Below are positions 12,037 to 33,264 of a DNA stretch of 38,519 bases, in pieces; the stretch's first letter is position 1; each line of letters opens with the position of its first letter. A model generated the notes under the pieces. It saw nothing but the letters and a program-made list of their open reading frames with translations. It made no database searches and was not told where the DNA came from. The DNA is from an uncultured Nitrospira sp. (GTDB taxonomy: Bacteria > Nitrospirota > Nitrospiria > Nitrospirales > Nitrospiraceae). The translations under genes were made by a program, and so were the position numbers. Where the stretch lies: the NCBI GenBank assembly GCA_902500715.1, contig CABVRO010000018.1:1-38519 (forward strand), read 5' to 3'.

Positions 12037-12075
12037 GAGGCTCTCCTTTCGGTGGTCACTATGTCCGCACAACTC

Positions 12076-12180
12076 AAAAAAAAACGTCCTCATCCCGCAT
12101 TCGGGAAGAGGACGTCGTTGTCCTGCTTGGCAAGGTCGCTACGACCTCGCCCGGTGCTGTGTGCCGACTTCAGCGTCGAC
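12076..12180 (-). promoter_or_regulatory. ANTAR-type antitermination module 2 of the nirC leader
   Basis: Downstream of module 1, the hairpin AGGAC-AACGAC-GTCCT (12109-12124, loop A1 and G4) overlaps a strong terminator, ACGTCCTC pairing with GAGGACGT (12084-12091, 12108-12115) and ending in nine U. A preceding six-base-loop hairpin, GTCGAC-GCTGAA-GTCGGC (12163-12180), has G at loop position 4 but G instead of A at position 1. A separate ten-base-pair hairpin (12129-12151) stands between them. The module is therefore a second gate with a less canonical first hairpin. Confidence 0.7.
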
Positions 12181-12186
12181 AGCAAT

Positions 12187-12278
12187 AAAAAAGGCGCCCG
12201 CCACTCTTGGAAGAATGACGGACACCTTTGTCCGTGTACCGTATTTAATGGGGGTGTGATATCAGGCGTCATTGCCTG
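12187..12278 (-). promoter_or_regulatory. ANTAR-type antitermination module 1 of the nirC leader
   Basis: On the minus strand the first hairpin is CAGGC-AATGAC-GCCTG (12263-12278) and the second ACGGAC-AAAGGT-GTCCGT (12218-12235). Both have six-base loops with A at 1 and G at 4. The 3' side of the second hairpin is shared with a terminator: a 14-bp stem with three G-U pairs (12190-12203 with 12216-12229) and a run of T (12187-12192). Formation of the second hairpin excludes the terminator. This is the known target layout of ANTAR antiterminators. Confidence 0.78.
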
Positions 12279-12297
12279 TTTTCACCCAACCCCCGCA

Positions 12298-12326
12298 TTT
12301 ATACCATCGCCTCGTGGATTCGTCAA
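12298..12326 (-). promoter_or_regulatory. Sigma-70 promoter of the nirC-cynS-nirA operon
   Basis: On the minus strand TTGACG (12321-12326) and TATAAA (12298-12303) are exactly 17 bases apart, a near-consensus promoter. It lies just after the glnA stop, so this operon can be transcribed separately from the upstream nitrogen genes. The predicted RNA starts about 10 to 15 bases before the first leader hairpin. Confidence 0.8.
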
Positions 12327-12353
12327 GCGCCCGAAACCACGAATCGCCGGCTT

Positions 12354-13763
12354 CTACACGTCGTAGTATAGGAAAAACTCATACGGATGCGGGCGCAACC
12401 GCATCGTATCGACTTCCTTCGTCCGCTTATAGCCGATCCAGGCCTCGATGAGGTCTTCGCTGAACACCCCGCCCTTGAGGAGGAACTGATGATCCTTTTC
12501 CAAGTGATTGAGCGCCTCGTCCAAGCTGCCCGGCATCGTCCGAATCTTGGCCGCTTCCTTAGCTTCGAGATCGTACAGATCCTTCTCCGCCGGCTCCCCG
12601 GGATTGATCTTGTTCTCGATTCCGTCCAGGCCGGCCATCAACATCGCGGAAAAAGCCAGATAGGGATTGGCGGCTGGATCCGGGAAGCGCACTTCGATCC
12701 GCTTGGCCTTCGGGCTCGGGGAATACATCGGAATTCGAATGCCCGCCGACCGGTTGCGGCTCGAATAGGCCAGCAACACCGGGGCTTCGAAGCCCGGCGT
12801 CAGCCGCTTGTACGAATTCGTCGACGGGTTGGTGAAGGCCGCCAGTGCGGGGGCATGCTTCAAGATACCGCCGATGTAGTGCAGGCACATCTGCGACACG
12901 CCGGCATATTCTTTTCCGGCAAACAGCGGCTTGCCGTCCTTCCAGATGCTCTGGTGGGTATGCATGCCCGATCCGTTGTCGCCGAAAATCGGCTTCGGCA
13001 TGAAGGTCACCGTCTTCCCATGCCGACGCGCGACGTTCTTGACGATATATTTGAACATCATCATCTTGTCCGCGGTTCTCAGCAGGCTGTCGAAGCGGAT
13101 GTCTATTTCAGCCTGCCCTGCCGTCGCCACCTCATGATGATGCTTTTCAGTGGCGATGCCGGCCTTCTCCATCTCGAGAATCATTTCGGTTCGGATATCC
13201 TGCTGCGTATCGGTCGGCGCAACCGGGAAGTAACCTTCCTTGTGTCGGATCTTGCCGCCCAGATTGACCCCCTCCTGTCCCATATTCCACACGCCCTCGT
13301 CGGAATCGATGTGGTAGTAGGCGCTGTGGTTCGTCTGGTCGTATCGCGCATGATCGAAGATAAAAAATTCGGCTTCCGGTCCCCAGTACGAGGTGTCGCC
13401 GATCTTGGTGCTCTGGAGATACTTTTCGGCTTTCTGGGCGATGAACCGTGGATCGCGGTCATACATTTCCCGCGTGATCGGATCGACGACGTTGCCGATG
13501 AGGCTCAACGTCGGCACCGAACAAAACGGATCCATGCAGGCGGTTGCCGGGTCCGGCACGAGCAGCATGTCGCTGTTATTGATCGCCTTCCAGCCTCGAA
13601 TCGAAGAGCCGTCGAGACCGGAACCGTCCTTGAACAGGCCTTCCGTCAGTTCACTGACTGGAATCGTAAAATGCTGCCACGTCCCGATCAGGTCCACGAA
13701 CTTCATGTCCACAACCTGAACCTTGTTCTTTTTTGCAAACTCTAACACCTCACGAACGTTCAT
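12354..13763 (-). CDS. glnA: Glutamine synthetase, type I (GSI-beta)
   Basis: A 469-residue enzyme joining ammonium to glutamate with ATP, dodecameric in the family. Recognisable are the N-terminal beta-grasp part ([19 protein letters not shown]), the ATP/metal segments [34 protein letters not shown], and NRSAGIRIP. The adenylylation site is intact: [12 protein letters not shown] with the Tyr at residue 397, the same number as in E. coli, so control by GlnE-type enzymes is expected. It follows glnD with a 48-base gap carrying AAAGGAGGAGG before ATG 13763. Members of this class are feedback- and AMP-regulated. Confident call. Confidence 0.98.
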
Positions 13764-13811
13764 CCCCTCCTCCTTTCAACCGCCGATAAAAAAACGCCTT
13801 CCCTCATTGCC

Positions 13812-16496
13812 CTACACCGCATGAGCCCCAAGAAACAGTTCAATCTCATTGAGAATCGACGCCCGAATCGATTCCAAACGACCAGCCTCCTCCACCTTCT
13901 TGCCGTCTACGCCGGTCACATAAAATACGTCGGCCACCTGGTCCAGCCTGGTGGAGATTCTGGAGGCATGGACCGACAACCCCAATTGAAAAATGGCATT
14001 CGTGATGACATATAACAAGCCTTGTCGGTCATCTGCAAACACGTCGAGAATGGTAAAACGGTCCGAGGTTTCATTGTCGATCCGTACCTCGGCAGGCTGC
14101 CGATGCGCGGGCAACGATCGTCCCAGACTCAGCCGGACGCCGCGCCGCATGACCGTATCGATCGACAACCGACCGGTCAACACGTCGGTAATCGTGTCCG
14201 CAACCGACTCTCGTCGCTCCGCAGGAGGTTCCCCCTGATAGTCAGGGTCAGCGACCTGGAAGGTATCCACCACTACGCCATCCTGTCGTGTCACGATTTG
14301 CGCATCCAGGATCTGCAGCCCGCCCGCCGCCATGACCCCGGCGATCTTTGAGAACAGTCCCGGGATCACATCGTTATGTGCGATGACGGCATATTCACAG
14401 GTACCCAGCGGCGCATTATATTCTGTTTCGACCACGACGCCGCCCGCTTGTAGACGCCGGATGGCGCCCAGATGGGCGGCAATGCGCCGCGGACTTGTGC
14501 CGTAGGCATATCGCAAGGGAAACTGTTCGAGTTCCGATCGAATCCAGGCCTTGTCGTTCGGCAGATTCTGATTGTCCGATGCCTGTACCACCACATCATC
14601 GGCGATACGCGCCAACCGCTGCGGCTCGTCTGCGGTCTCACGCTCGCCGGAAACCTCCTGCATCGCCCGCAGATACAACTCAACCAGCAAGGACTCTTTC
14701 CATTTCGTGAGCACGTCCGGACCGACCGCAGCGATGTCTGCAGCCGTCAACGCCAACAGTTTTCGCAGGACCTCCGGGGTGCCGACTTCGCGAGCAAAGG
14801 GGAGCAGCACCTTTTCATCATAAGGATCGCGACGAAACGCCGTGTGGGCCATCAGCAGGTGGCGATGGACGAGCATCACGAGGGTTCGCGCCTCCCGCTC
14901 ATCGAACCCGAGACGTACGGCAGTCTCTTCCGCCAACCGCTTCCCGACTTCACTATGATCTTCCTCATGGCCTTTCCCCAGATCATGAAGGAGGAGAGCC
15001 AGATGCAGCAGGTCCTTTCGCTTGATCTCCCGGTACACATCCCCTAACACGCCGGGATGCTCGGCGAAGGCCTCGGCCTTCGCCACCGCCAGTAAACTAT
15101 GCTCGTCGACCGTATACTTGTGGTACTGATTGAACTGCATCAACCCACGCACACGCGAGAAGGCCGGCACCAGTTTCTCCAACAGGTGCGCGCGATGCAT
15201 GGCGTCCAATGTTTTTGCCGTACCGGGCCCGGATAAAATCGACAGGAAGGTGCGGCCGGTCTCGAGCGTATGGAACTGCTCGACAGTAAGTGTTTCCACA
15301 TGTCGGTGAATGTCTTCCAGCAGCGATGGATCGATGCTCAGCTTGCGCGACCGCGCGAGATCGAATAGCGTGAGCAACAACACCGGGTTACCCAACACCT
15401 GAGAGCGTGATTCGGCCGGAACCGTCAGCGCCTCGCCGTCGATCACAAAATGCCGATCGATTCGCTGAGCCGGCAACCACCGCGACACCCGCTGCCACAA
15501 GGTCCGGCGACGACATCGCTCGACAAATCGCATCAGGGCCGCATGCAACCCCATCGTGTGTCGATAGTACTGCTGCATGAACTGTTCGACGGCCAGCAAA
15601 TGTGGTCGATCGGTAAAACCCAAGTGTTTCGCCAGCCACACCTGCTCATCGAAGGTGAGAATCTCCTGCGCCATGCCGGCTCGAGTGTGGAGGAACGAGC
15701 GCACGCGGAGGAGAAATTCCCGGGCCTCCTTGATCGCCCGATAGTCGGCCTGGGACAGAATGCCGCGATCTGACAACTCACGAATGGTGGGGGCATGGAA
15801 TCGGGCCGAGCCGATCCATTGCAGCAGATGCAGATCCCGCAATCCGCCTTGGCTCTTTTTGACGTTCGGCTCCAGGAGATAGACCGTCTCGCCGAACTTC
15901 TGATATTCACGCTGCCGCTCGGCCATTTTCTGGTCGAGGTAGGCATCGAACCCGCTCGACACGACCTTCCGCTCATACCGGGCGTGGAACTGTTGAAACA
16001 GTTCGGGGCTTCCCGCAAGAAACCGGGCCTCCATCATTGAGGTCCGGACCGTGAGATCCGCCAATCCCAACTCGATACAGTCCTGAATGGTCCGCACACT
16101 ATGCCCGACCTGAAACCCGCTGTCCCAGAGCGGATGAAGCACCTGTTTCACCAAATCCGGCATCACCTTGGCCGCATCTTGATGGAACAGGAACATTAAA
16201 TCGATGTCGGAGTGGGGCGCTAATTCCCGCCGGCCGTAGCCCCCGATTGCCACGAGACAGCAATGCTGAAACCCGGCGGTCGAGAGCGGCTCGCCGCCGG
16301 TTCGCGCCGCAGTCCGATAGCGGCCGACGATCAAGCCGTCGACCAGATCCGTCATGGCCGCGACCTCCTCCTCGCCCGAGGCGCCGGACAATAATCGTTC
16401 GTGAATTGTCCGGCGTTGCTCAGCCAACAACTGGGACACCGGCACGGACACGGTGTCTCGCGTAAAGAAGGAATCCGCGTTCACAGTGAGCGCCAT
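13812..16496 (-). CDS. glnD: PII uridylyltransferase / uridylyl-removing enzyme
   Basis: An 894-residue sensor enzyme that adds UMP to PII under nitrogen limitation and removes it when glutamine is high. The nucleotidyltransferase site is GGYGRRELAPHSDIDL with D97 and D99. A GlnD_UR_UTase helical part follows (VKKSQGGLRDLHLLQW). The HD domain for UMP removal is intact (HKYTVDEHSL near 459 and LLLHDLGKG with H504 and D505). Two ACT domains close the protein (about 720-800 and 825-890, the latter with TILDVFADDRQGLLYVI). Its start lies four bases beyond the glnB stop, so the two are coupled. Length and order fit the family exactly. Confidence 0.97.
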   Translation of the reverse strand: MALTVNADSFFTRDTVSVPVSQLLAEQRRTIHERLLSGASGEEEVAAMTDLVDGLIVGRYRTAARTGGEPLSTAGFQHCCLVAIGGYGRRELAPHSDIDLMFLFHQDAAKVMPDLVKQVLHPLWDSGFQVGHSVRTIQDCIELGLADLTVRTSMMEARFLAGSPELFQQFHARYERKVVSSGFDAYLDQKMAERQREYQKFGETVYLLEPNVKKSQGGLRDLHLLQWIGSARFHAPTIRELSDRGILSQADYRAIKEAREFLLRVRSFLHTRAGMAQEILTFDEQVWLAKHLGFTDRPHLLAVEQFMQQYYRHTMGLHAALMRFVERCRRRTLWQRVSRWLPAQRIDRHFVIDGEALTVPAESRSQVLGNPVLLLTLFDLARSRKLSIDPSLLEDIHRHVETLTVEQFHTLETGRTFLSILSGPGTAKTLDAMHRAHLLEKLVPAFSRVRGLMQFNQYHKYTVDEHSLLAVAKAEAFAEHPGVLGDVYREIKRKDLLHLALLLHDLGKGHEEDHSEVGKRLAEETAVRLGFDEREARTLVMLVHRHLLMAHTAFRRDPYDEKVLLPFAREVGTPEVLRKLLALTAADIAAVGPDVLTKWKESLLVELYLRAMQEVSGERETADEPQRLARIADDVVVQASDNQNLPNDKAWIRSELEQFPLRYAYGTSPRRIAAHLGAIRRLQAGGVVVETEYNAPLGTCEYAVIAHNDVIPGLFSKIAGVMAAGGLQILDAQIVTRQDGVVVDTFQVADPDYQGEPPAERRESVADTITDVLTGRLSIDTVMRRGVRLSLGRSLPAHRQPAEVRIDNETSDRFTILDVFADDRQGLLYVITNAIFQLGLSVHASRISTRLDQVADVFYVTGVDGKKVEEAGRLESIRASILNEIELFLGAHAV

Positions 16497-16499
16497 ACG

Positions 16500-16850
<351 letters not shown>

Positions 16851-18188
16851 TCATGAGTACGCACGCTCGTTGTGTTGACTCAAATCCAGACCGGTCATTT
16901 CCTGTTCCGTCGAGACCCGCAATCCAACCGTCGCATCAACCACCTTGAGAAGAAGATAGGACACGACGACCGAAAATGCTGCCGTTACCATAGCAGTGAC
17001 AAACTGCACCCACAGCTGCCCCGGATTTCCGTACAGCAGCCCATCGGCGCCGGTCGCGTTAATTGCTTTCGAGGCAAAGAGTCCGACGGAGAGAATCCCA
17101 AGAAGTCCGCCGACTCCATGCACACCGACCACATCAAGCGCGTCATCATAGCCAAACTTACCTTTCACAACAATGCCGAAGTAACAGGCCACGCCTGCAA
17201 CAATTCCAATCATAATCGCCGCCCCAACCCCGATATACCCCGAAGCCGGAGTGACCGTCGCCAGCCCCGCGACGGCCCCAGTCACAGCTCCCAAAACGGT
17301 TGGTTTTCCGCGATGTTGCCATTCCACAATGATCCAGACCAAGGTGGCTGTCACCGCCGCGATATGGGTCGCGACAAACGCACTCACGGCATTGGCATTC
17401 GCCCCCAGTGCGCTACCGGCATTGAACCCAAACCAGCCGAACCACAAGAGCCCAGCTCCAAGCACTGTCATCGGCAGATTGTGCGGCGCCATGTATTCTG
17501 TTCCATAGCCCTTCCTGGCCCCCACCACATAGGCACACACGAGTGCGGCGGCCCCGGAACTGATATGCACGACCGCGCCACCGGCAAAATCCAAGGCTCC
17601 GAATTTTGCCAACCATCCCCCACCCCAAATCCAATGGGCCAGAGGGCAATACACCACCACGGTCCAAAGCCCTGAAAACAGGAGCAGTGCACTAAACTTC
17701 ATCCTCTCCGCGAATGCCCCGGTGAAGAGGGCTGGCGTGATCGCGGCAAACATCAGCTGAAACACCATGAACGCCTGGTGAGGAATCGTCGCGCCGTACA
17801 CCGCGTGCGGCGTAAAGCCGACCCCAGAGAGCAGCATCCAGTCAAGATTACCGATTACACCCCCCACATCCGGGCCAAACGCCAAACTGTACCCGAACAC
17901 GACCCATATGAGGCTCACCAACGCCAGAATTGCGAGAGTTTGAACAAGAGTACCGAGCACGTTCTTGCTTCGAACCAGCCCCCCATAAAAGAGGGCAAGG
18001 CCGGGCATTGTCATGGCCAGAACCAAGGCTGAGGAGGTCAGCACCCATGCCGTATCGCCGGTATCGATCTTCCCCGCCCCTTCTTGTCCCCATGCGGGCG
18101 AGAGCCACACGAGACCGACCATCAGATACCCGATGCCCACGAGCGAGCGCAGGCTCAGTATCCGCCTTGCACGATGCACAATACGCAT
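16851..18188 (-). CDS. amt: Ammonium transporter, Amt family (copy 1)
   Basis: A 445-residue inner-membrane ammonium channel with a cleavable-looking signal (LVGIGYLMVGLVWLSPAWG) and about 11 membrane helices. Family marks are DTAWVLTSSALVLAMTMPGLALFYGG, the pore histidines in CPLAHWIWGGGWL and VVGVHGVGGLLG, and GADGLLYGNPGQLW. The Phe-gate region and signature DFAGGAVVHISSG are intact. ATG 18188 is preferred over the upstream TTG because GGGAGG stands at the right distance. It ends EMTGLDLSQHNERAYS, nearly identical to the end of the neighbouring copy, pointing to a tandem duplication. It pairs with the PII gene downstream. Confidence 0.96.
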   Translation of the reverse strand: MRIVHRARRILSLRSLVGIGYLMVGLVWLSPAWGQEGAGKIDTGDTAWVLTSSALVLAMTMPGLALFYGGLVRSKNVLGTLVQTLAILALVSLIWVVFGYSLAFGPDVGGVIGNLDWMLLSGVGFTPHAVYGATIPHQAFMVFQLMFAAITPALFTGAFAERMKFSALLLFSGLWTVVVYCPLAHWIWGGGWLAKFGALDFAGGAVVHISSGAAALVCAYVVGARKGYGTEYMAPHNLPMTVLGAGLLWFGWFGFNAGSALGANANAVSAFVATHIAAVTATLVWIIVEWQHRGKPTVLGAVTGAVAGLATVTPASGYIGVGAAIMIGIVAGVACYFGIVVKGKFGYDDALDVVGVHGVGGLLGILSVGLFASKAINATGADGLLYGNPGQLWVQFVTAMVTAAFSVVVSYLLLKVVDATVGLRVSTEQEMTGLDLSQHNERAYS

Positions 18189-18210
18189 AGAGGTCCCTCC
18201 CAATCCTTAG

Positions 18211-19596
18211 TTAGGAATAGGCCCGTTCCTCATGCTGGCTGAGATCCAGGCCCATTCGCTCTTCTCCCTCAGAGACACAGAGTCCCATAGTCTTGTCGAG
18301 AATCTTCAAGATAATGAAGGTTCCGACGAACGCAAACCCAACGGACACCAGAACCGCTCCGGCTTGAATCAGCACCTGACCCGGATTGCCATACAACAAG
18401 CCATCCGCTCCAGCCGCGTTAACGGCTTTCGAGGCAAAGATTCCGGTCGCGAGAGCCCCCCACGTTCCTCCGACTCCATGGATCCCGACAACGTCGAGAG
18501 AATCGTCGTAGCCCAGCTTCGCCTTCAGCATCACCGCCATGTAACACAGGAGTCCTGCTCCGACACCGATGAGGATCGAGGCCATCGGCCCTACGAATCC
18601 GGAGGCCGGAGTAATAGCCACCAGTCCTGCCACGGCACCAGAGGCGGCACCCAGGACCGTCGGTTTTCCACGGTGCACCCACTCGCCAAACATCCAAGCC
18701 AATCCGGCAGCAGCGGTCGCCGTGTTGGTCACCACAAATGCGCTGGTGGCTAACGCTCCGGACGCCACGGCACTTCCGGCGTTAAACCCGAACCATCCAA
18801 ACCAAAGAAGCGCAGCCCCTAAGACGGTCATTGGAAGGTTATGCGGAGCCATATGTTCCTTCCCGTACCCGAGTCTCGTCCGCATCACGAGAGCACAGGC
18901 TAAGGCCGAGGCACCCGAGCTGATATGGACGACCGTTCCTCCGGCGAAATCGAGTGCCCCAAAATTCCTGAGCCATCCACCCACGGCCCATACCCAATGG
19001 GCAAGCGGATCGTAGATGACTGTGGCCCAGAGCAGTGAAAATACGAGAAACGTGCTGAACCTCATCCGTTCGGCAAACGCGCCCGTAATCAAGGCCGGCG
19101 TGATCACGGCAAACATCATTTGGAATGCCATGAACGCCTGATGGGGTATGGTTGCCGCGTAATCAGCATTCGGATCGAGTCCCACCCCGTTCAACCCCAG
19201 CCACTCGAGGCCGCCGATAATATGCCCTTTATCTGGACCAAATGCGAGGCTATATCCCCACAATACCCATTGGACGCTGATCAGACAGAGAAGGATAAAA
19301 CTCTGCATGATGGTCCCCAAGGCATTCTTCGACCGAACCATGCCGCCATAGAAGAGCGCCAGCCCCGGGGCCGTCATGGCCAACACCATCGCAGTCGACA
19401 CCAGAACCCACGTCGTATCGCCGCTATCGATTTTCGGCGCCGACGCCGCAGCGGCTGCGGCCTGAGGCACGGCTTCCGCTGTCACTGCAATCGGTGCTGC
19501 CGCTTCTTCAGCCCAGACACGCGCTCCACCTGCAAGAAACATCAGGCAGGTGAAAGCGGAAAGAATCCCATGCATAACGCCCATACGCGTGAACAT
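18211..19596 (-). CDS. amt: Ammonium transporter, Amt family (copy 2)
   Basis: A 461-residue paralogue of the downstream Amt, with the same signature (DFAGGTVVHISSG), pore histidines (DPLAHWVWAVGGWL and VVGIHGVGGTWG) and C-terminus (GLDLSQHEERAYS). It differs mainly in a longer N-terminal part, where an Ala-rich linker (about 30-54) follows the signal peptide. The start ATG 19596 has AAGGAAGTGG upstream; an internal Met8 is also possible. It lies 23 bases after the porin gene and 22 before the next amt. Two adjacent copies may differ in affinity or in PII control; the sequence does not decide. Confidence 0.96.
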   Translation of the reverse strand: MFTRMGVMHGILSAFTCLMFLAGGARVWAEEAAAPIAVTAEAVPQAAAAAASAPKIDSGDTTWVLVSTAMVLAMTAPGLALFYGGMVRSKNALGTIMQSFILLCLISVQWVLWGYSLAFGPDKGHIIGGLEWLGLNGVGLDPNADYAATIPHQAFMAFQMMFAVITPALITGAFAERMRFSTFLVFSLLWATVIYDPLAHWVWAVGGWLRNFGALDFAGGTVVHISSGASALACALVMRTRLGYGKEHMAPHNLPMTVLGAALLWFGWFGFNAGSAVASGALATSAFVVTNTATAAAGLAWMFGEWVHRGKPTVLGAASGAVAGLVAITPASGFVGPMASILIGVGAGLLCYMAVMLKAKLGYDDSLDVVGIHGVGGTWGALATGIFASKAVNAAGADGLLYGNPGQVLIQAGAVLVSVGFAFVGTFIILKILDKTMGLCVSEGEERMGLDLSQHEERAYS

Positions 19597-19619
19597 GATC
19601 CACTTCCTTTCTCCCCTGC

Positions 19620-20927
19620 CTAAAAGAGGTACACGACTTGGAATGAGAGAGTCTCTTGGTGATTCGCCGGATCGTTGCCGTTCAGAAACACGTTGCGGTT
19701 CGATTTGTCGTACCGGAATTCAGCCCGGGTAATCAGGGACGGAGTCGGCTTGTACTGCAGCGTATAGGTCGTGTCCCAGAGCGTTTGCGCCACACCCCCA
19801 GCCGGATTGCCGGCACAGGTGTTCCATCCGCCTGGTACCCCGGTAAAGGATCCAAGGGTACCGGCCACCCCCCCGGTGCACGTTCTGGCTCCACCGGCAT
19901 CTTCAAAAATTTCTCCCCGGATACGAGCACTCCACTGATCGTCGAACTCATGGATGAGGTACGCCCCCAGTCCGTTCCACCTGGCATTCTTCCCGGCCTT
20001 CCCGGCCACCAGATTGGCATTCGCTTCATTGGCATAGTAGGGCTCCAACACGATCGTATCCTGGCTGGTCGCCTTAAACGTAATGATGGACCCCGCGACT
20101 GTTCTTGTGGCGCTGGCATCGCCGGCGACGAGGCCCCCGACCGAATTCGATTGTTCAGGACCGACCGATCCATAGAAGCTCACTCCTAACCGCTCATGCG
20201 GAGTCAGAGCGACCAACCATTCGAAGGTTTTCCCCTTGTTGTTATCGTCCACGTTATCCCAGCCGTTCACCACCCCGACGGAAGCCGTCACCATCGGATT
20301 GAAGGTGTAGCTCAATCGAATGCCTGTTGTAGTGAAGGCCTGCCCGAGCCCGAACATGAAGGTCCTGGAAAAGTTCGGGTTCTCCCAACTGTTGATGACC
20401 TCATACCCGATCAGCGTGTTCATTTTTCCAACTTGAACCTTGAGCCCATTGCCGACCGGGAGTATGTACTCACCATAAAGCTCTTGGAAATCGACCTCGT
20501 CGCTGCCCACGCCCGGTTGAAAGTTCGTCCTCGCCCGCGTGACTCTGGCATCGAGCCCGAAATTCAAGCGCGCGCGAAACCCTGCCCGATCGACCGCACT
20601 CCCGCCGGCGTCCGCCGGTCGTTCCAGGAGCAACTGCGCCAGATGGGGCATGAACGAGCTGGCATTTGTATCGAAGACGTGGAGCTGGTTCAGATTCGTA
20701 CTGGGGTTATTGAAATTATGCGTGTAGGCGACGTCGACAGCCCCCGACAGTTTTAGCCCCAGGCGTTTCCAGACCGAGGCGGCATCGCTCTGTTTCTCCA
20801 GCGCTTCTACCCGTTCCTGTAAACTCGCTCCCCCAGCGGGAGGAACGGGAGCCACTTGCCCGAACGCGAACCCTCCCGTGAGCACCGTCATCAGCATCCC
20901 TATTCCACACTGCCTCAAAACCGACAT
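19620..20927 (-). CDS. Outer-membrane porin, BBP2/OprL-like beta-barrel
   Basis: A 435-residue outer-membrane protein. MSVLRQCGIGMLMTVLTGGFAFGQ is a signal peptide, followed by a short coiled coil (ASLQERVEALEKQSDA) and alternating aromatic strands to the terminal Phe (ETLSFQVVYLF), the usual mark of a beta-barrel. Blocks such as KLSGAVDVAYTHNF, QELYGEYILPVGNGLKVQVGKM and TRAEFRYDKSNRNVF fit the putative beta-barrel porin-2 family. First gene of the amt cluster, so a role in passing ammonium or related small nitrogen compounds across the outer membrane is inferred. ATG 20927 is preceded by GGAGG at five bases; an upstream ATG at 20960 lacks one. Confidence 0.85.
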   Translation of the reverse strand: MSVLRQCGIGMLMTVLTGGFAFGQVAPVPPAGGASLQERVEALEKQSDAASVWKRLGLKLSGAVDVAYTHNFNNPSTNLNQLHVFDTNASSFMPHLAQLLLERPADAGGSAVDRAGFRARLNFGLDARVTRARTNFQPGVGSDEVDFQELYGEYILPVGNGLKVQVGKMNTLIGYEVINSWENPNFSRTFMFGLGQAFTTTGIRLSYTFNPMVTASVGVVNGWDNVDDNNKGKTFEWLVALTPHERLGVSFYGSVGPEQSNSVGGLVAGDASATRTVAGSIITFKATSQDTIVLEPYYANEANANLVAGKAGKNARWNGLGAYLIHEFDDQWSARIRGEIFEDAGGARTCTGGVAGTLGSFTGVPGGWNTCAGNPAGGVAQTLWDTTYTLQYKPTPSLITRAEFRYDKSNRNVFLNGNDPANHQETLSFQVVYLF

Positions 20928-20991
20928 GCTGGCCTCCTCCTTCGTCACGTAATGGTACAACTCCCTCTCAGAGATCGCTCCGCTACCACCA

Positions 20992-25960: not shown

Positions 25961-25989
25961 TTGACAGCAAGCGACATTCTTTGTATACA
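25961..25989 (+). promoter_or_regulatory. Sigma-70 promoter of the 26227 lipoprotein leader
   Basis: TTGACA (25961-25966) and TATACA (25984-25989) are 17 bases apart. The first leader hairpin begins about 11 bases after the box, near the predicted RNA start. Confidence 0.8.
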
Positions 25990-26000
25990 TATAAATGAGT

Positions 26001-26081
26001 GACGGAAAACAAGGGCGTTTTCCTGTCAGAGTGAGTGGACAATGAGGTCCTCCGGTCGTGCTGGCCAGAGGGCTTTTTTTT
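26001..26081 (+). promoter_or_regulatory. ANTAR-type antitermination module 1 of the 26227 leader
   Basis: Hairpin one is GGAAAAC-AAGGGC-GTTTTCC (26004-26023, extended by GAC/GTC), hairpin two GGAC-AATGAG-GTCC (26037-26050). Both loops have six bases with A1 and G4. Hairpin two shares GTCC with a terminator stem, 26047-26057 pairing with 26063-26073 (one mismatch and two G-U pairs), ending in eight U (26074-26081). Confidence 0.78.
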
Positions 26082-26097
26082 GACTACATGACTGCTG

Positions 26098-26182
26098 GAG
26101 GCGATGACGCCTCGGTCGGGCCAGTGCCCGGCAGATGGACAAAGACGTCCTCAGGTCCTGCGGACCCGAGGACGTTTTTTTT
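26098..26182 (+). promoter_or_regulatory. ANTAR-type antitermination module 2 of the 26227 leader
   Basis: GAGGC-GATGAC-GCCTC (26098-26113) has a six-base loop with G at position 4 but G at position 1. A short separate hairpin CGGGC-CAGT-GCCCG (26117-26130) follows, then GGAC-AAAGAC-GTCC (26137-26150, A1 and G4). The last shares its 3' side with the terminator ACGTCCTC..GAGGACGT (26145-26175), which ends in eight U. The order repeats that of module 2 in the nirC leader. Confidence 0.72.
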
Positions 26183-26226
26183 GGCTCCAGTCGATTGACG
26201 CCAGCTACAATTTTGCGGAGGCACCC

Positions 26227-27141
26227 ATGCATGCCAAGCCGAGACTAACCAACCCTGCGGCCCTATTGCTCGGACTCGCCGGCCTCCTGGCAGGATGCGG
26301 AGCCCTCACACCCCCCTTGACGGCGGACGCTCTGCCCGTGAATTCGAAAGCCTATGATCTTCCGTCCGACATGGATCCCAACGTGGTGACCCGCATGGTC
26401 GAAAGTTCATTTTGGCATGTGCTGAAGACCCCTCCGGCCGTCACTGAAGGAGCGATGCCCGCTTCCCTCCCCCTCACTCCATTTGGCTTTTACGTTGAGG
26501 ATAAGATGTTCACACTCGACCGCCTGGGCTCGGTACATTTCCCCCAAGCTGTCTGCCCTCACTCCCTGGCGATGATCGAGGGTCTTCACAGTGGCTCCCA
26601 GGCCGTCTACCGTTATACAGCCTGCATGGAACCGTACCAGGGCGGAGTTCGTCTCTACCTAATTGAAACGAAGGCTGCTTTCGGCTTCACCGATACCGCC
26701 GCATCTTCATCGGCCTCCTTCTCCGATCTGCTGAAGCGCCTGGCCGCCGGCGTGACCGAGGCCATGCCCCATGCAAGGGTTGCGTCGGCTGATCCCGGCA
26801 GCGATGTGGACTCTACTTCGAAAGGAGCGCACAGCGGTGATCGGAGTGTGGCTCAAGACTCACCAGGGAAATCGCGATCGCTCGGAACCTCTCCGTCTCA
26901 TGAGGTTGAAGCGGAAATCAGGGGCACCTCACCGCTGATCTGTCTCACTCCCGATCGAAACGAAATCGTGGTGCGATCTCTTCCCGGCGAGGGACGTATT
27001 GTCGGAACAGTGACATCGGGATTGGCCATCGGAGATAATTCGCCGCTCGATGGGGCCTACATTCATGTGAGAACCGACCAGGGGCTAGCGGGATGGGCAC
27101 AGAGGAGTGACCTACATTGGAGCTCCTGCCCGATCGGGTGA
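26227..27141 (+). CDS. Lipoprotein with C-terminal SH3-like domain
   Basis: A 304-residue exported protein. MHAKPRLTNPAALLLGLAGLLAGC is a lipoprotein signal (lipobox LAGC). The first half (AYDLPSDMDPNVVTRMVESSFWHVL to GGVRLYLIETKAAFGF) is a compact domain with two conserved-looking Cys; a Ser/Gly-rich linker follows; residues about 235-300 (NEIVVRSLPGEGRIVGTVTSGLAIGD..GAYIHVRTDQGLAGWAQRSDL) read as a bacterial SH3 domain, often a peptidoglycan binder. GGAGG at 26217-26221 fixes ATG 26227. It is the only gene directly behind the tandem leader at 26001-26182. I do not recognise the N-terminal family. Confidence 0.7.
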   Translation: MHAKPRLTNPAALLLGLAGLLAGCGALTPPLTADALPVNSKAYDLPSDMDPNVVTRMVESSFWHVLKTPPAVTEGAMPASLPLTPFGFYVEDKMFTLDRLGSVHFPQAVCPHSLAMIEGLHSGSQAVYRYTACMEPYQGGVRLYLIETKAAFGFTDTAASSSASFSDLLKRLAAGVTEAMPHARVASADPGSDVDSTSKGAHSGDRSVAQDSPGKSRSLGTSPSHEVEAEIRGTSPLICLTPDRNEIVVRSLPGEGRIVGTVTSGLAIGDNSPLDGAYIHVRTDQGLAGWAQRSDLHWSSCPIG

Positions 27142-28163: not shown

Positions 28164-28252
28164 ATACCAGCAACCACTCCACCGTCTGAAGTCAGACCAA
28201 TAACTCCCTGCCTCTGCCCGGAACATCCTGCGGCCCGTTCGGGATTTCCTAG

Positions 28253-30028
28253 CTAATAACTGCAATATCGGTTCGTGATCGGCATCCGGCGGTCTTTGCC
28301 GAATGCCCGATGCGTAATCTTGATGCCGAGCGGCGCCTGTCGCCGCTTATACTCACTGCGATCGACCATCCCCATGACCCGCGCGACCGTCTCCCGATCG
28401 AACCCCATCGCTGTAATATCTTCCAACGCACGGTCCTGCTCGACGTAGGCCTTGAGAATCGGATCGAGGATGGCATAGGGCGGCAGACTGTCTTCGTCCT
28501 TTTGGTCGGGACGCAACTCCGCGGTCGGAGCCCGCTCGAGCACACGTTTCGGGATGACTGGAACCGGCCCGACCAGATTTCGCAGATGCGACAACTCGTA
28601 CACCATGGTCTTCGGCACATCCTTGATCACCGCAAACCCTCCGGCCATATCGCCGTACAACGTGGCGTACCCGACACTCATTTCGCTCTTATTCCCGGTG
28701 GTCAGAACCAAATGGCCGAACTTGTTCGAATAGGCCATCAATAAATTTCCCCTGATCCGGGCCTGTAAATTTTCCTCGGTCGTGTCGGGACGAGCGCCGG
28801 CAAACGGCTTCGATAACGTCCGAAGGTAACTCTTGAAGGTCGTCGTGATCGGTAGGGTATCCACCTGGATGCGCAGGCGCCGGGCCAGATCGACCACATC
28901 TTCACGACTGGCTCGCGACGTATACGGCGAGGGCATGAACACCCCGAGCACATTCTCCGCGCCCAAGGCGTCTACCGCGATGACTGCGGTGATGGCCGAG
29001 TCCACCCCTCCGCTCAACCCGATGACGACGCGCTTGAACCCGTTCTTGCGGACATAGTCCTGCACCCCGAGGACCAAGGCGCGATAGGCCTCGTCGAGCC
29101 GACCTAGCGGAGGCTCCAGATCCGGCACCACGACCGACTGCGACTTTCTCGCAGGCAGGCGCACATCGACCCGATCAATGAGGGCTGCCACAGCCGGCGG
29201 AAGGGGTTTCTTACGTCCCTGGGCCAGCCGTGCCCGCCCCACGGCCGCGACATCGAGATCCGCCACGATGAGATCCTGCTCAAACGCCTTCCCCCGCCCC
29301 ACGATCTCGCCCGCCTGGTCCACAATCATGCTGCAGCCGTCGAACACCAGTTCGTCCTGCCCACCGACTGTGTTGGTGTACGTCACGATCACGCGATTTT
29401 CACGGGCCCTGGTCGCCAGCACCTGTTCGCGCATCCGTCCCTTCCCGACATGGAACGGGGATGCGTTGATATTGACGATGACCTCGGCCCCCGCTGCAGC
29501 CTGCGCACGGGTGGGACCGTCAGAAAACCAGATGTCTTCGCAAATATTGACGCCGATCGTCGCGCCGTTCAGGACCAGCAGCGGCAGACGGGAGCCGGGG
29601 TGGAAATACCGGCTCTCGTCGAACACGCCGTAGTTCGGCAGATGCCGTTTCCGGTAGGTGGCCAGAATCCGCCGATCGGACAGTACCGCCGCCTCGTTGT
29701 ACAACTCATGCCGACCGGCCAGCGGGAATGAAGGCGCCTCCGAGGCCAAAACAGCCGTCGCCCCTTGGCCGACATACCCCACGACCACGACCAACCCGCG
29801 CGCTTCGGCAGCAACCGCCTTCAAGGCACGATGCGTGTCCTCGATAAAGCGAGACTTGAACAACAAATCCTCCGGCGGATAGCCGGTGATAGCCAGTTCC
29901 GGGAAGGCCACGAGATCGGCTTTAGCCCGGCGCGCTTCCTTGATCCACGTCTGGATCAAGCGCGTGTTGCCGGCAATATCCCCGACGGTCGGATTGATTT
30001 GGGCCATGGCAATTCGGAGCGGCCGCAT
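28253..30028 (-). CDS. nadE: Glutamine-dependent NAD+ synthetase
   Basis: A 591-residue two-domain enzyme that makes NAD+ from deamido-NAD+, ATP and ammonia drawn from glutamine. The N-terminal nitrilase-like glutaminase has the Glu-Lys-Cys triad at E44 (FPELAITGYPPEDLL), K128 (YRKRHLPNYGVFDE) and C163 (VNICEDIWF). The synthetase domain has the PP-loop SGGVDSA (339-345) and GNKSEMSVGYATLYGDMAGG. The start at ATG 30028 gives the family's usual beginning (MRPLRIAMAQINPTVGDI); an upstream in-frame start would add an unrelated 13 residues. It lies behind an antitermination leader, with a 125-base palindrome between. Confidence 0.97.
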   Translation of the reverse strand: MRPLRIAMAQINPTVGDIAGNTRLIQTWIKEARRAKADLVAFPELAITGYPPEDLLFKSRFIEDTHRALKAVAAEARGLVVVVGYVGQGATAVLASEAPSFPLAGRHELYNEAAVLSDRRILATYRKRHLPNYGVFDESRYFHPGSRLPLLVLNGATIGVNICEDIWFSDGPTRAQAAAGAEVIVNINASPFHVGKGRMREQVLATRARENRVIVTYTNTVGGQDELVFDGCSMIVDQAGEIVGRGKAFEQDLIVADLDVAAVGRARLAQGRKKPLPPAVAALIDRVDVRLPARKSQSVVVPDLEPPLGRLDEAYRALVLGVQDYVRKNGFKRVVIGLSGGVDSAITAVIAVDALGAENVLGVFMPSPYTSRASREDVVDLARRLRIQVDTLPITTTFKSYLRTLSKPFAGARPDTTEENLQARIRGNLLMAYSNKFGHLVLTTGNKSEMSVGYATLYGDMAGGFAVIKDVPKTMVYELSHLRNLVGPVPVIPKRVLERAPTAELRPDQKDEDSLPPYAILDPILKAYVEQDRALEDITAMGFDRETVARVMGMVDRSEYKRRQAPLGIKITHRAFGKDRRMPITNRYCSY

Positions 30029-30074
30029 CAGTATTCCCAAAGCTCCGGCATTTCGGAGATACAACACATTCCGC

Positions 30075-30199: not shown

Positions 30200-30203
30200 C
30201 GAT

Positions 30204-30307
30204 AAAAAAAAAGTCCTCAGACCCACCTCGGTGGATCGGAGGACGTCGTTGTCCTGGTTCCAATGTATCGTTCGGAACGAATTGCTCGCCGGAGACGCCA
30301 TTGTCCC
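30204..30307 (-). promoter_or_regulatory. ANTAR-type antitermination leader of nadE
   Basis: On the minus strand hairpin one is GGGAC-AATGGC-GTCTC (30292-30307, one G-U pair) and hairpin two AGGAC-AACGAC-GTCCT (30240-30255); both loops have A1 and G4. Hairpin two shares its 3' arm with a terminator (30213-30227 with 30230-30244) that ends in nine U (30204-30212). Loop two equals that of module 2 in the nirC leader. Confidence 0.75.
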
Positions 30308-30323
30308 TTGAAATTGTCCCGAG

Positions 30324-30353
30324 TGTATACCACCGGCCTAAACAAGCTGTCAA
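30324..30353 (-). promoter_or_regulatory. Sigma-70 promoter of the nadE leader
   Basis: On the minus strand TTGACA (30348-30353) and TATACA (30324-30329) are 18 bases apart. It diverges from the promoter of the 30424 gene, whose TACAAT box is near 30411-30416. Confidence 0.7.
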
Positions 30354-30423
30354 CCATTTGATTCGCATTTTTCCAATGGAAACCAAGCGGTTCTGCAGTC
30401 AACCTGTGGTACAATCCTTCGCC

Positions 30424-31335
30424 ATGCGGCCCATGATTCGCCGTCCCACTCCAACACAATCACGACTCAACAGTTTCCGGTTCACCTGGCAGCTGGCACT
30501 CCCCTGCCTCCTCCTCTACGCCTGCAGCCTCGGGGCGAACCTGACCCCTGTCGGACAGGGGCCCCTAGGAACCGTCGCCCTTGAACGTCAGACCACCCGT
30601 GGTACCACCGTCAAATACGGTACCCTGCAGACTTTTCAGGCATCGCATCCTGCCCATCTGACGGCCTCGCTGACGGGACGCCTGCTCACGGGCCTGACCG
30701 TTTCAGGACTCAATCGACCTGACAGCAGTATGGCGCAGGAGAGTTATCCGCTGTTCTCCCACGAGGAAGTGGAGTTTCTGGCCCCGCTCATCGTCACCGC
30801 ACTCGCACAGGCCCAGCCCGACCAGCGGGTTCGCTTCACCATGCAGGACGACGGTCTCACGACCCAAGGCACACTCTACGTGTACGAGACCACGCTACGA
30901 GTGACCCTGTCTCGCTACCGATCGACATCCGCGGATGGACAGACCAGACCCGGGACGCTCAGGTTCTCCTTCACGCCCTCCCAAGCCCTGGTGCCAGCCG
31001 ACGCCCCCCAACCCTGGATGATCGTCGAGCCGGAACAGCCGCGTATCGCGGTCTCCCTTGAAGCGCTGAGTCAGCTTCCTGCGCCATCTCCTGTCGCGGC
31101 AGACCACAACTCCACTGCCGAGGCAGCCTCGACACACACCTCGCCCGAGGCCCAACAGAGCCGCTTGCAGCAGGAACTCCAATCCACGAAGGATGTGGTG
31201 GTCAAACAGGCGGAGGAACTCCAGAAGCTCAAGGCAGAGTTGGAATCGGTACGGCGCCAGTTAGCTGAGAAAGACGTCGCTGCGTCCAAGCCCAAGCCGA
31301 AAGCGGCGCCCCGCAAGCCGACGGCAACACCCTAA
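30424..31335 (+). CDS. Lineage-type lipoprotein with C-terminal coiled coil (paralogue B)
   Basis: A 303-residue protein whose ATG 30424 lies about eight bases after a TACAAT box, so the leader is very short. The signal FTWQLALPCLLLYAC ends in a possible lipobox (Cys34). The core TTVKYGTLQTFQASHPAHLTASLTGRLLTGLTV, EVEFLAPLIVTALAQAQPDQRVRFTM and TQGTLYVYETTLRVTLSRYRS matches paralogue A at 27234-28163 segment by segment. The end is a coiled coil (SRLQQELQSTKDVVVKQAEELQKLKAEL) with a basic Pro/Lys tail. No named family recognised. It converges with the next gene at 16 bases distance. Confidence 0.7.
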   Translation: MRPMIRRPTPTQSRLNSFRFTWQLALPCLLLYACSLGANLTPVGQGPLGTVALERQTTRGTTVKYGTLQTFQASHPAHLTASLTGRLLTGLTVSGLNRPDSSMAQESYPLFSHEEVEFLAPLIVTALAQAQPDQRVRFTMQDDGLTTQGTLYVYETTLRVTLSRYRSTSADGQTRPGTLRFSFTPSQALVPADAPQPWMIVEPEQPRIAVSLEALSQLPAPSPVAADHNSTAEAASTHTSPEAQQSRLQQELQSTKDVVVKQAEELQKLKAELESVRRQLAEKDVAASKPKPKAAPRKPTATP

Positions 31336-31351
31336 CGGCGAACGGCAGCGG

Positions 31352-31741
31352 TCATTGGCTGCCGGAAAGGAGGTCCGGCTGCGCCAAGACCTCCTTCGCG
31401 TCATAGACGTCATCAGCGCCCACCGGCTTCTTGCCCTTGTACATCGTCACCGTCATCGACGTTCGTCGTGAGAGTGCCAGCACATCCGCACGCTGGGCGA
31501 GATGGAAGAAATCATAGCCCTCGCGCAAGGTCAGCTCCGCGCAACGCCGTCGCAGGTAGGCATCCAGTTGTTCTTGCGAGGTAAACGAACTGACGCGGTA
31601 TTCCACACGATAGACATTCTCCTTGAGCTGCTCCACCTCATCGCGATCGGCCCCGACCAACGGAGTGTATTGCCCGGTGGCGCAGGCGCTTGCCATAAGA
31701 GTTAGCAGAACAGCTGTGGCAACGCGTCGGCTCTTCGCCAT
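31352..31741 (-). CDS. Small lipoprotein, CC0125/CC1285-like
   Basis: A 129-residue lipoprotein from ATG 31741. MAKSRRVATAVLLTLMASAC is the signal (lipobox ASAC, Cys20). The mature part, VYRVEYRVSSFTSQEQLDAYLRRRCAELTLREGYDFFHLAQRA, has the pattern of the CC0125/CC1285-type lipoproteins of unknown role (a YRV..G-T....YL..R.AELT...GYD.F motif). The longer frame upstream to 32008 is very unlike a protein start. It stands downstream of the ANTAR gene on the same strand, 260 bases away, in a stretch with no other feature. Confidence 0.75.
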   Translation of the reverse strand: MAKSRRVATAVLLTLMASACATGQYTPLVGADRDEVEQLKENVYRVEYRVSSFTSQEQLDAYLRRRCAELTLREGYDFFHLAQRADVLALSRRTSMTVTMYKGKKPVGADDVYDAKEVLAQPDLLSGSQ

Positions 31742-32004
31742 CCCAACCTCACCTATTCCCAGACAGTCTCGAACATGTGCTGTTGCGTTCATTGATGTGT
31801 GGACATCAGGCGGGCTACAAGTCGGTCTCACCCCCTGAGCCCTCCAAGAGAGTACCGCCAATGAAGCAGAATGAGGAGCAGAAGACAAACGAAGCGTGAA
31901 GTAATCTGGAAGGAACGGCTCGGGCTCAACCCCAGCACCGCGAAGATCGATCCAACTGCCAGGGCCTGCACCCTCCTCTGGTCGTAAAGTTCGCCTAGTG
32001 GCGA

Positions 32005-33264
32005 TCAACTCCTGCCCTTATCGGCCCGCTCTTCGATTTCTCCGGCCAGGAGAATGGCTTCTGCGATCTCTCGCATGGATTTGCGAAGATCCATGCTCTG
32101 GCGTTGAATCAATTTGAACGCGTCTTCTTCCGACAGCCGTTTCGACCGCATGAGATATCCCTTGGCCCGGTCGAGTAACTTGCGGACCTGCAAGGCTTCC
32201 TGCATTTCAAACGATTTCTCCAGCAACGTGGTGTGCTCGATGGAAATCGCGGCCTGATTGGCAATCGCCTGCATCAGTTTGACATCCTCTGCCATGAAGG
32301 TATGCGGCTTGGACGTATACGTATTGATGACCCCGATGGCCTTTTCCCGCACGAGCATCGGGACGCACAGGAGCGAGCAGAGGCCCTCCTTCGCAGCCAT
32401 GTCCGGATACATATAGGTGCCTTCTTTGGTGACATCCGGCACGATGATCGGCCGGCGATCCTGAACGGCACGCCCGCTGATACTTTGCCCGATCTTCACG
32501 TTGGGCTTGCGTCGGTACTGCTCGCTCAGACTTTGTGTGGCGGCGATCCGAAGTTCACCGGTCGGCTGATCCAAAAGAATGATGGAGCAAATCTTCGATC
32601 CCATCATTTGAGCCGTCATCGTCACAATCAACTGCAGTACGTCCTCGATCAATCGATTCGACGACACGGTCTCCGAAACCTGGGACAGCGTATCCAGTTG
32701 CAGCGCCTTCCGTGTCATCTGATCGTAGAGACGGGCGTTTTCAATGGCCCCTCCGACCTGCGTGGCGATAGTCGAGAGCAACGCGAGCTCGTCGGGCCGG
32801 TAGCGGCGCGACCGTTTGTGCTGCACATTGATGACGCCGACGACTTCCTGTTTGGTCGTAATCGGGACCGAGACGAACGCCTGGTAGCGGTCTTCGGGAA
32901 GGTGGTGAAAGAATTTAAACCGCGGGTCATCGCTGGCGCTGTTGGGAATGACGACGCGCGTGCGCTCCCGCGCGACCCATCCGGTGATGCCCTCGCCCAT
33001 GCCGATGGTAATCCGCCCAATCAGCTTCGGATGCGGATTCTTGGAGGCCCGTAGGATCAACTCGTCTCTGGTATCCGACAACAAATACAGCAAGCAGGCG
33101 TCAGCCTTGGTCACTTCCACGACCATATCCACGATATGCCGGAGCACGGCCTCCAAATCGAGCGTGTTGCTGATCGACTCGCTGATGCGATGGAGGACAT
33201 CCACCTCACGCGTCTTTTCACGCAAGGCTTGCTCGACTTGAGTCAGCGTTCGTTTGGTCGCCAT
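32005..33264 (-). CDS. GAF-GAF-ANTAR transcription antitermination regulator
   Basis: A 419-residue cytosolic regulator. GAF1 covers about 35-180 (ADACLLYLL..GMGEGITGWVARERTRVVIPNSASDDPRF..ISVPI-like VSVPITTKQEVVGVINVQHK), GAF2 about 205-345 (KICSIILLDQPTGELRIAATQ..LCSLLCVPMLVREKAIGVINTY). The C-terminal 60 residues are an ANTAR domain: QVRKLLDRAKGYLMRSKRLSEEDAFKLIQRQSMDLRKSMREIAEAIL. ANTAR proteins (AmiR, NasR and EutV are known) bind paired hexaloop hairpins in RNA leaders and prevent termination; the GAF domains would sense a small molecule or phosphorylation-like input, identity unknown. The ribosome site AGGAG overlaps the aroB stop, seven bases upstream, so the two are co-translated. 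Four candidate leaders lie in this window. Confidence 0.92.
   Translation of the reverse strand: MATKRTLTQVEQALREKTREVDVLHRISESISNTLDLEAVLRHIVDMVVEVTKADACLLYLLSDTRDELILRASKNPHPKLIGRITIGMGEGITGWVARERTRVVIPNSASDDPRFKFFHHLPEDRYQAFVSVPITTKQEVVGVINVQHKRSRRYRPDELALLSTIATQVGGAIENARLYDQMTRKALQLDTLSQVSETVSSNRLIEDVLQLIVTMTAQMMGSKICSIILLDQPTGELRIAATQSLSEQYRRKPNVKIGQSISGRAVQDRRPIIVPDVTKEGTYMYPDMAAKEGLCSLLCVPMLVREKAIGVINTYTSKPHTFMAEDVKLMQAIANQAAISIEHTTLLEKSFEMQEALQVRKLLDRAKGYLMRSKRLSEEDAFKLIQRQSMDLRKSMREIAEAILLAGEIEERADKGRS

Follow-up and report, generated by a model that had tools for sequence, protein, structure and literature searches.

Does the single ANTAR-domain protein encoded in a nitrogen gene cluster of an uncultured Nitrospira species control the genes around it through their leader RNAs? 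The question is raised by a stretch of 38,519 nucleotides (contig CABVRO010000018.1 of assembly GCA_902500715.1; hereafter the window), in which four leaders carrying paired hairpins with six-base loops adjoin a gene for a GAF-GAF-ANTAR protein. The six modules of these leaders are very probably RNA targets of that protein, which would act by antitermination to admit transcription into genes serving mostly nitrogen uptake and assimilation. The assembly comprises 3.66 Mb in 241 contigs and is 93.5% complete, and the nearest named relatives by the regulator are Nitrospira, such as Candidatus Nitrospira defluvii (98% identity).

The leaders, each running from a TTGACA-like -35 element to the end of a U-run, occupy 12076-12326 (A), 21317-21455 (B), 25961-26182 (C) and 30204-30353 (D), where the first-pass annotation had placed them, and the -35 and -10 elements of their promoter-like sites are 16-18 nucleotides (nt) apart. 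Each module consists of a first hexaloop hairpin (P1), a linker, a second hexaloop hairpin (P2), a terminator and a U-run. The two hairpins per leader claimed in that annotation hold for B and D, which contain one module each, whereas A and C contain two modules in tandem, giving six modules and 12 hexaloop hairpins. Its loop rule, A at position 1 and G at position 4, stands for G in 12/12 loops but for A in only 10/12, the exceptions being the first hairpins of both second modules. The claimed sharing of bases between the second hairpin and a U-tailed terminator is found in 6/6 modules, the 5' strand of the predicted terminator including the 3' strand of P2. The P1-P2 linkers measure 13, 23, 24, 27, 36 and 38 nt. 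The features are as follows.

12298-12326, minus strand: promoter-like site of leader A, TTGACG-17-TATAAA
12263-12278, minus strand: P1 hairpin of leader A module 1, loop AAUGAC
12218-12235, minus strand: P2 hairpin of leader A module 1, loop AAAGGU
12187-12229, minus strand: terminator of leader A module 1, overlapping P2, with U-run (found by generic scan; -24.1 kcal/mol)
12163-12180, minus strand: first hairpin of leader A module 2, loop GCUGAA (not A1; weakest module, 20.5 bits)
12109-12124, minus strand: P2 hairpin of leader A module 2, loop AACGAC
12076-12114, minus strand: terminator of leader A module 2, with U-run
21428-21455, minus strand: promoter-like site of leader B, TTGACA-16-GATAGA
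21389-21412, minus strand: P1 hairpin of leader B, loop AAAGGC, one stem mismatch
21351-21364, minus strand: P2 hairpin of leader B, loop AAAGGC
21317-21355, minus strand: terminator of leader B, with U-run
25961-25989, plus strand: promoter-like site of leader C, TTGACA-17-TATACA
26004-26023, plus strand: P1 hairpin of leader C module 1, loop AAGGGC
26037-26050, plus strand: P2 hairpin of leader C module 1, loop AAUGAG
26046-26081, plus strand: terminator of leader C module 1, with U-run
26098-26113, plus strand: P1 hairpin of leader C module 2, loop GAUGAC (G1)
26137-26150, plus strand: P2 hairpin of leader C module 2, loop AAAGAC
26146-26181, plus strand: terminator of leader C module 2, with U-run
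30324-30353, minus strand: promoter-like site of leader D, TTGACA-18-TATACA
30292-30307, minus strand: P1 hairpin of leader D, loop AAUGGC
30240-30255, minus strand: P2 hairpin of leader D, loop AACGAC
30204-30244, minus strand: terminator of leader D, with U-run

The regulator gene is likewise confirmed, Pfam recognizing two GAF domains and an ANTAR domain in its product. On the minus strand the gene order is aroB, the GAF-GAF-ANTAR gene, nadE, porin-amt-amt-PII-glnD-glnA and nirC-cynS-nirA, beginning with these two genes.

33272-34429, minus strand: aroB, on the same strand as the ANTAR gene, which starts 7 bases after it
32005-33264, minus strand: GAF-GAF-ANTAR protein of 419 amino acids, presumed antiterminator

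The ANTAR domain (PF03861) scores 67.4 bits against a curated cut-off of 27.3 (E = 9.6e-19), and this protein provides the only PF03861 match in the whole 93.5%-complete assembly. In an alignment with NasR, whose RNA-binding residues were taken from PMC7496416, R340, K345, K347 and W362 of NasR correspond to R361, R366, K368 and F383 of the window protein.

Two covariance models were used to search for such RNAs. R1 describes P2 plus the terminator, with the window's six modules as seeds, and R2 describes P1, linker and P2 without the terminator, with 44 seeds, three of them from the window. In the assembly, scores were computed for the best 150 of 677 first-look candidates with R1 and the best 150 of 1113 with R2, a limit at which weak places could go undetected. 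Among these, R1 gives the six modules 51.1-62.6 bits, followed by an opposite-strand echo at 30.7 bits and the next separate place at 28.4 bits; R2 gives five modules 40.8-50.3 bits, leader A module 2 20.5 bits and the next place 19.4 bits. Modules outside the R2 seeds were recovered at 42.8 bits (12217-12280) and 40.8 bits (30238-30309). Within the best 150 candidates of each model, strong matches are confined to 18 kb of one contig, beside the sole ANTAR gene. As extra targets, the 28.4-bit R1 place (C36) was rejected because it lies inside an open frame, and the R2 places at C117, C66 and C10 (19.4, 14.1 and 13.3 bits) were treated as chance, that at C117 provisionally. An Rfam scan of the window returned no match over the gathering score.

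The modules are preserved in relatives. The search with a covariance model of the six modules, proposed in the first-pass annotation, gave 63 R1 matches over 80 loci around ANTAR genes and 62 over the window and 29 other loci. Of these 125 matches, 108 begin with GGAC or GGGC in the expected place, and 100 modules with distinct upstream sequence were kept after removal of echoes and repeats, tandem ones being counted apart; L101 (upstream sequence N) does not enter the P1 test. When P1 was located by the pattern C-RANGRN-G alone (loop letters plus closing pair), at least four of the five further stem pairs were formed in 77/99 modules, compared with a mean of 0.76 and a maximum of 4 in 100 shuffled sets. 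In a set of 56 distinct P1 hairpins, the five pairs other than the closing pair are formed in 53, 53, 51, 50 and 38 cases, versus 45.7, 44.4, 44.0, 33.3 and 23.8 with shuffled partners, and the loops have A (49/56) or G (7/56) at position 1, the search pattern itself fixing a purine at positions 1 and 5, A at 2 and G at 4. Alignment A7 contains 44 of 51 dissimilar modules, selected for at least five of six P1 pairs, which biases percent paired; the pattern test on 99 modules is free of this bias. Its P1 stems hold 56 double-changed cells versus 17.2 in shuffles and 1-20 in slid-partner controls, and its covariation score is 0.371 versus 0.158 in shuffles and at most 0.173 in slid controls. P1 stems thus covary in related genomes, one of the points on which the first-pass annotation had let its proposal hang. 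The P2 stem is near-invariant in A7 (one changed cell of 176) and is therefore uninformative on pairing. In addition, a promoter match of at least 9/12 lies within 80 nt before P1 in 71/75 modules, versus 2.8 expected.

These data bear on whether the structures are ordinary insulating terminators, with P1 and P2 loops arising by chance or as by-products. Leader A, which starts at 12326 and follows glnA (ending at 12354) on the same strand, could indeed end the glnA operon. However, P1 covaries although it lies outside the terminator, each leader has its own promoter-like site, and the modules conserve GGACAAnGnnGUCC, which a terminator does not need, making an insulating role almost certainly the wrong explanation.

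Terminators of the main class in these modules also tend to have a weak point. In those of the GTCCTC...GAGGRC type, the pair just above the core shared with P2 is unpaired in 57/58 distinct sequences by a sequence test, with ten mismatch types, and the next pair up is formed in 55/58; the window terminators at 12076-12114, 21317-21355, 26046-26081, 26146-26181 and 30204-30244 are listed with this broken pair. A fold test places a mismatch or bulge at step 7 in 59/73 distinct GTCCTC-type terminators, and among ordinary terminators, of which only nine were usable as a control, none is broken at step 7 and three at step 8. The broken pair may hinder strand invasion of P2. The mismatch is not universal, occurring in 0/8 GTCCGT-type and at most 1/20 GTCCTT-type sequences. 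The linkers in relatives range from 13 to 42 nt (median 27), with 0/66 distinct ones of 12 nt or less. Linker structure was rejected as a general cause of this length (mean z -0.34 for 65 linkers versus single-base shuffles), although folding is seen in two linkers of the window, those in modules C2 and D.

The distribution of the RNA follows that of the protein. R1 searches scored part of the first-look candidates, 52 per genome in the family sample, 31 in the phylum draw, and 150 in the window's assembly and in N. moscoviensis and N. defluvii. In the family sample of 118 genomes, ANTAR matches occur in 91 and R1 matches (E <=0.05) in 95, with 88 having both, three ANTAR only, seven RNA only and 20 neither, so that the RNA is found in 88/91 genomes with ANTAR and 7/27 without. 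Exactly one ANTAR match occurs in 89 of the 91. Completeness is 72-89% for five of the genomes with RNA only and >98% for the remaining two, G059 and G087, which hold one weak R1 match each (E = 4e-4 and 4.5e-5). In the phylum draw, all nine ANTAR-encoding genomes of family f2, from the same order, have an R1 match at E <=0.01, compared with 2/7 in other families of the class and 1/33, weakly, elsewhere in the phylum; one genome without ANTAR also has a weak match. This pattern across families therefore identifies R1 as an order-level RNA. In four distant relatives (L110, L140, L143 and L153), an R1 match lies ~115-145 bases past the end of the ANTAR match, followed by nadE.

The same distribution makes it very unlikely that the leaders attenuate under another factor, such as a leader peptide, a different RNA-binding protein or a small RNA, with the ANTAR protein acting elsewhere. 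Such a factor would suit linkers longer than those of the Enterococcus faecalis eut leaders, a near-invariant P2 stem that could serve any P2-binding factor, and the weak matches kept by G059 and G087. It fits poorly with the single ANTAR match of nearly all ANTAR-encoding genomes, with the ANTAR-R1-nadE order of the four distant relatives, and with the absence of ANTAR gene and leaders together in genus g6.

This joint absence favors the ANTAR protein as reader of the leaders. All 26 sampled g6 genomes have nadE, 22 lacking and four retaining ANTAR. Each of the four retains 3-5 R1 matches; the region before nadE contains both hairpins and a U-run in G056 and G073 and P2 with a U-run in G078, and nadE comes immediately after ANTAR in G005. 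In the 22 genomes without ANTAR, aroB lies in the same 4.5-4.8-kb stretch as nadE (22/22), and no leader is present in the ~400 bases before nadE in any of them (G096 has a hairpin without a U-run). Between its aroB and nadE, G087 retains an ANTAR gene remnant, and it keeps a P1-P2 leader after ureD (L204:4080-4126), with no same-strand open frame of >68 amino acids in the next 1.3 kb. A match to amoA is found in 16/22 g6 genomes without ANTAR and 0/4 with it, and NirC-type transporters in 1/22 (G087) and 4/4, respectively. In a nadE tree, the four ANTAR-encoding g6 genomes are united (with L090), G087 is sister to 18 genomes lacking ANTAR, and three more lacking it stand apart, one on a long branch. 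Ten amoA-positive genomes of genus g10 all encode ANTAR, and 8/10 have R1 matches. We infer that g6 and g10 correspond to comammox (complete ammonia oxidizer) clades A and B. A strict rule that comammox lacks ANTAR was rejected, as 10/26 amoA-positive genomes (all g10) keep it and 6/22 g6 genomes without ANTAR have no amoA match. Loss of leaders and ANTAR is linked, imperfectly, with comammox, and the group without the protein and nearly all leaders holds most of the sampled amoA-positive genomes. According to PMC6311188, assimilatory nitrite reductase and cyanase are missing from comammox genomes, and canonical Nitrospira share a syntenic nitrogen cluster. P1 covariation, co-occurrence of ANTAR and RNA, and joint absence in g6 support the regulon proposed in the first-pass annotation, for which we infer binding. 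The sequences themselves show the modules, how they are conserved, covary and are placed, and that they tend to occur, or to be absent, together with the ANTAR gene.

The genes behind the window's leaders are as follows, identified by Pfam except for the target of leader C.

11206-12093, minus strand: nirC, behind leader A (targets spanning 8871-12093)
10712-11152, minus strand: cynS, behind leader A
8871-10469, minus strand: nirA, behind leader A
19620-20960, minus strand: BBP2 porin, behind leader B (targets spanning 12354-20960)
18211-19596, minus strand: amt, behind leader B
16851-18203, minus strand: amt, behind leader B
16500-16838, minus strand: PII, behind leader B
13812-16496, minus strand: glnD, behind leader B
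12354-13763, minus strand: glnA, behind leader B
26224-27141, plus strand: lipoprotein-like gene, behind leader C (start codon chosen by us; listed frame from 26104)
28253-30067, minus strand: nadE, glutamine-dependent NAD synthetase (CN_hydrolase and NAD_synthase), behind leader D

The porin-amt-glnB-glnD-glnA set named in the first-pass annotation is confirmed by Pfam, except that its amt is two genes; by strand and spacing, the genes behind leader B appear to form one operon. The leader C frame (26104-27141) has no Pfam match, and three of its 15 homologues come with a named organism, all Nitrospira. Lipoprotein-like genes stand behind tandem modules in three places (window 26224-27141, L047 and L221:2938-3834), perhaps pointing to an uncharacterized gene for nitrogen scarcity. 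In the second nirC module, the loop of the first hairpin is off consensus in the window (12163-12180) and in L052, L054, L055, L057, L059, L062-L064 and L067, and this module may be a decaying or differently used site.

Across the 100 modules, the first window-like gene is nadE in 38, nirC in 20, porin in 16, lipoprotein-like in four, NirA-like in one and kinase-like in one, and 20 have no window-like first gene. Frames were listed behind twelve of the latter, and the nine products searched comprise four porin-size proteins and one short protein without a Pfam match, a NirB-type nitrite reductase, a carbonic anhydrase and, behind porin-size genes, two urea/amide-type binding proteins (Peripla_BP_5; urtA-like). 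Twenty further stretches were picked from the R1 matches, and the ten products searched comprise four BBP2 porins, one sigma-54 activator, GlnA (G214) and four without a match; two further sigma-54 activators were found behind R1-like leaders. R1-like leaders precede sigma-54 activator genes in family f2 genomes (L207, L210 and L212), which may connect the RNA switch with sigma-54 control in that family. In G214, from another family of the same class, a P2-like terminator without a recognized P1 precedes glnA (L216:1017-1065). In N. moscoviensis (G270), four R1 places are found 11-24 kb beyond the ANTAR gene; R1 places there stand before nadE, as a tandem pair after glnA, and in the interval separating cynS from two amt genes. 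Those in N. defluvii (G269) lie before nadE and before nirC.

How might the switch operate? Termination would be the default state, because the terminators in isolation fold at -16 to -24 kcal/mol and the P2 hairpins at -4 to -9 kcal/mol. By binding P1 and P2, the ANTAR protein would keep P2 in place and so stop the terminator from forming, following the model given for EutV (PMC3369931), and RNA polymerase would then proceed into the genes behind the leader. Where modules are in tandem, ahead of nirC and of the lipoprotein-like gene, readthrough would need two antitermination events. It is very unlikely that the protein binds the leaders as a repressor active under nitrogen excess, promoting termination or acting at the level of translation, since the sharing of the P2 3' strand with the terminator in 6/6 modules is the layout of characterized antitermination (PMC3369931).

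In the antitermination model, the GAF domains would sense nitrogen status. In a sequence search of solved structures, GAF1 is closest to an unnamed GAF protein (3e0y, E 3e-26), with the GAF domains of PtsP next (3e-22 and 2e-18), and because PtsP is the nearest by sequence among named solved structures, our guess for the ligand is glutamine or 2-oxoglutarate. Glutamine and PtsP are the subject of a paper on Caulobacter (PMC4848567). A complex of PII and NadE has been reported (PMC7196632), which nadE as a target would fit. The protein might instead read the leaders in response not to nitrogen status in general but to a specific cue, such as nitrite, cyanate-derived compounds, nitric oxide or a cyclic nucleotide. 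NasR, a relative by its output domain, senses nitrate (PMC7496416), nitrite and cyanate genes are among the targets, and the best whole-chain fold matches are tandem-GAF cyclases and phosphodiesterases. However, nadE is the commonest target and is joined by amt, PII, glnD, glnA and urtA-like genes, a set to which a substrate cue seems unsuited; nitrite would be met continually by a nitrite oxidizer; and GAF1 is nearest to the PtsP domains. A specific cue is therefore a serious but unlikely alternative to nitrogen status.

Several observations weigh against the reading of these leaders as targets of a nitrogen-sensing ANTAR antiterminator. Two residues required for RNA binding by NasR, R366 and N373, are Q387 and R394 in the window protein; Q and R also stand at these positions in the Rv1626 row of the alignment. 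In a whole-chain fold search, tandem-GAF cyclases, phosphodiesterases and phytochromes rank above the PtsP GAF domains (ranks 24, 37 and 45; one domain covered; template modeling score 0.84-0.89 of target; 26-30% identity), so that a cyclic nucleotide is still a candidate ligand; the whole-chain regulator model has a predicted template modeling score of 0.55, and its domain placement is uncertain. The Fisher test of ANTAR against RNA (p = 6e-14) leaves shared ancestry uncorrected and overstates independence, and the nadE tree is compatible with perhaps only one to three losses. No R1 match was found in 3/91 genomes with ANTAR, and Nitrospira sp. CG24A likewise encodes an ANTAR protein without an R1 match. 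The P1 test is failed by 22/99 modules, ten of them second nirC modules, and the number of A7 pairs with a double change is six versus a shuffle mean of 5.3 (213/500 shuffles as high). Between 12000 and 31000, a generic terminator scan found 18 sites versus a shuffle mean of 16.5, catching 1/6 module terminators, and a generic promoter scan found four versus 7.1, catching 0/4 leader promoters; the elements were probably missed because of the internal terminator mismatch and the last -10 base. Finally, the eut linkers measure 5-12 nt as opposed to 13-42 nt in the Nitrospira modules, and lengthening that of E. faecalis eutP to 14 nt drastically reduced induction (PMC3369931). Because linker length was free to vary in the published search motif (PMC3369931), the long linkers are taken as a variant and not as an exclusion.

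Among known systems, the EutV-eut leaders of E. faecalis share with the window two hexaloop hairpins, G at loop position 4 and mostly A at position 1, a conserved closing base pair, P2 tied to the terminator and several transcription units, but EutV is a two-component response regulator and its targets are ethanolamine genes (PMC3369931). NasR of Klebsiella oxytoca, acting on nasF, is likewise a one-component ANTAR protein that controls nitrogen assimilation via antitermination, but it carries a NIT nitrate sensor in place of GAF-GAF, and two of its RNA-binding residues are replaced in the window protein (PMC7496416). PMC3369931 also reports predicted ANTAR RNAs before genes for PII, ammonium and nitrite transporters, nitrite reductase and glutamine synthase in other bacteria, with at least 13 such RNAs in six transcription units of one species. 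It follows that ANTAR nitrogen regulons are already known as a kind. Predicted multi-operon ANTAR nitrogen regulons exist in Desulfotomaculum acetoxidans, D. reducens and Pelobacter carbinolicus, members of other phyla, and no nadE, cynS or porin targets are named for them in the part of PMC3369931 available to us. The view of the first-pass annotation that no ANTAR regulon of this scope is described in such an organism has to be narrowed in view of this precedent; for Nitrospira, none was found in the open-licence literature as judged by titles and the starts of abstracts. The canonical Nitrospira cluster of PMC6311188 contains amtB, glnB, glnD, glnA, nadE, nirC, cynS, nirA and urt in synteny and differs in comammox, but the passages and figure legend consulted name no ANTAR regulator or leader RNAs. 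What is new is the order Nitrospirales, the GAF-GAF sensor, the P1-P2 linkers of 13-42 nt and the comammox-linked loss, a combination that we consider real and likely functional. As of 2012 no GAF-type ANTAR protein had yet been characterized (PMC3369931), and PAL and NasR were named in 2020 as the only characterized one-component ANTAR proteins (PMC7496416); the window provides a candidate target set for a GAF-type protein.

Collectively, Nitrospira are major nitrite oxidizers whose published nitrogen cluster is described, in the consulted passages of PMC6311188, without a dedicated regulator, and the present analysis supplies a single candidate together with exact RNA sites, also in cultured N. 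moscoviensis and in N. defluvii. The long linkers raise the question of how an ANTAR dimer spans two hairpins. More tentatively, and with somewhat more doubt than confidence, we propose an order-wide, RNA-level master switch for nitrogen in Nitrospirales, in which a GAF-GAF-ANTAR sensor of glutamine or 2-oxoglutarate would act on long-linker, often tandem antiterminators with a weak point in the terminator stem, and which may have been dismantled, gene and leaders together, en route to clade-A-type comammox. The loss of this regulation would add to the known gene losses of comammox Nitrospira, with one genome keeping remnants of it.

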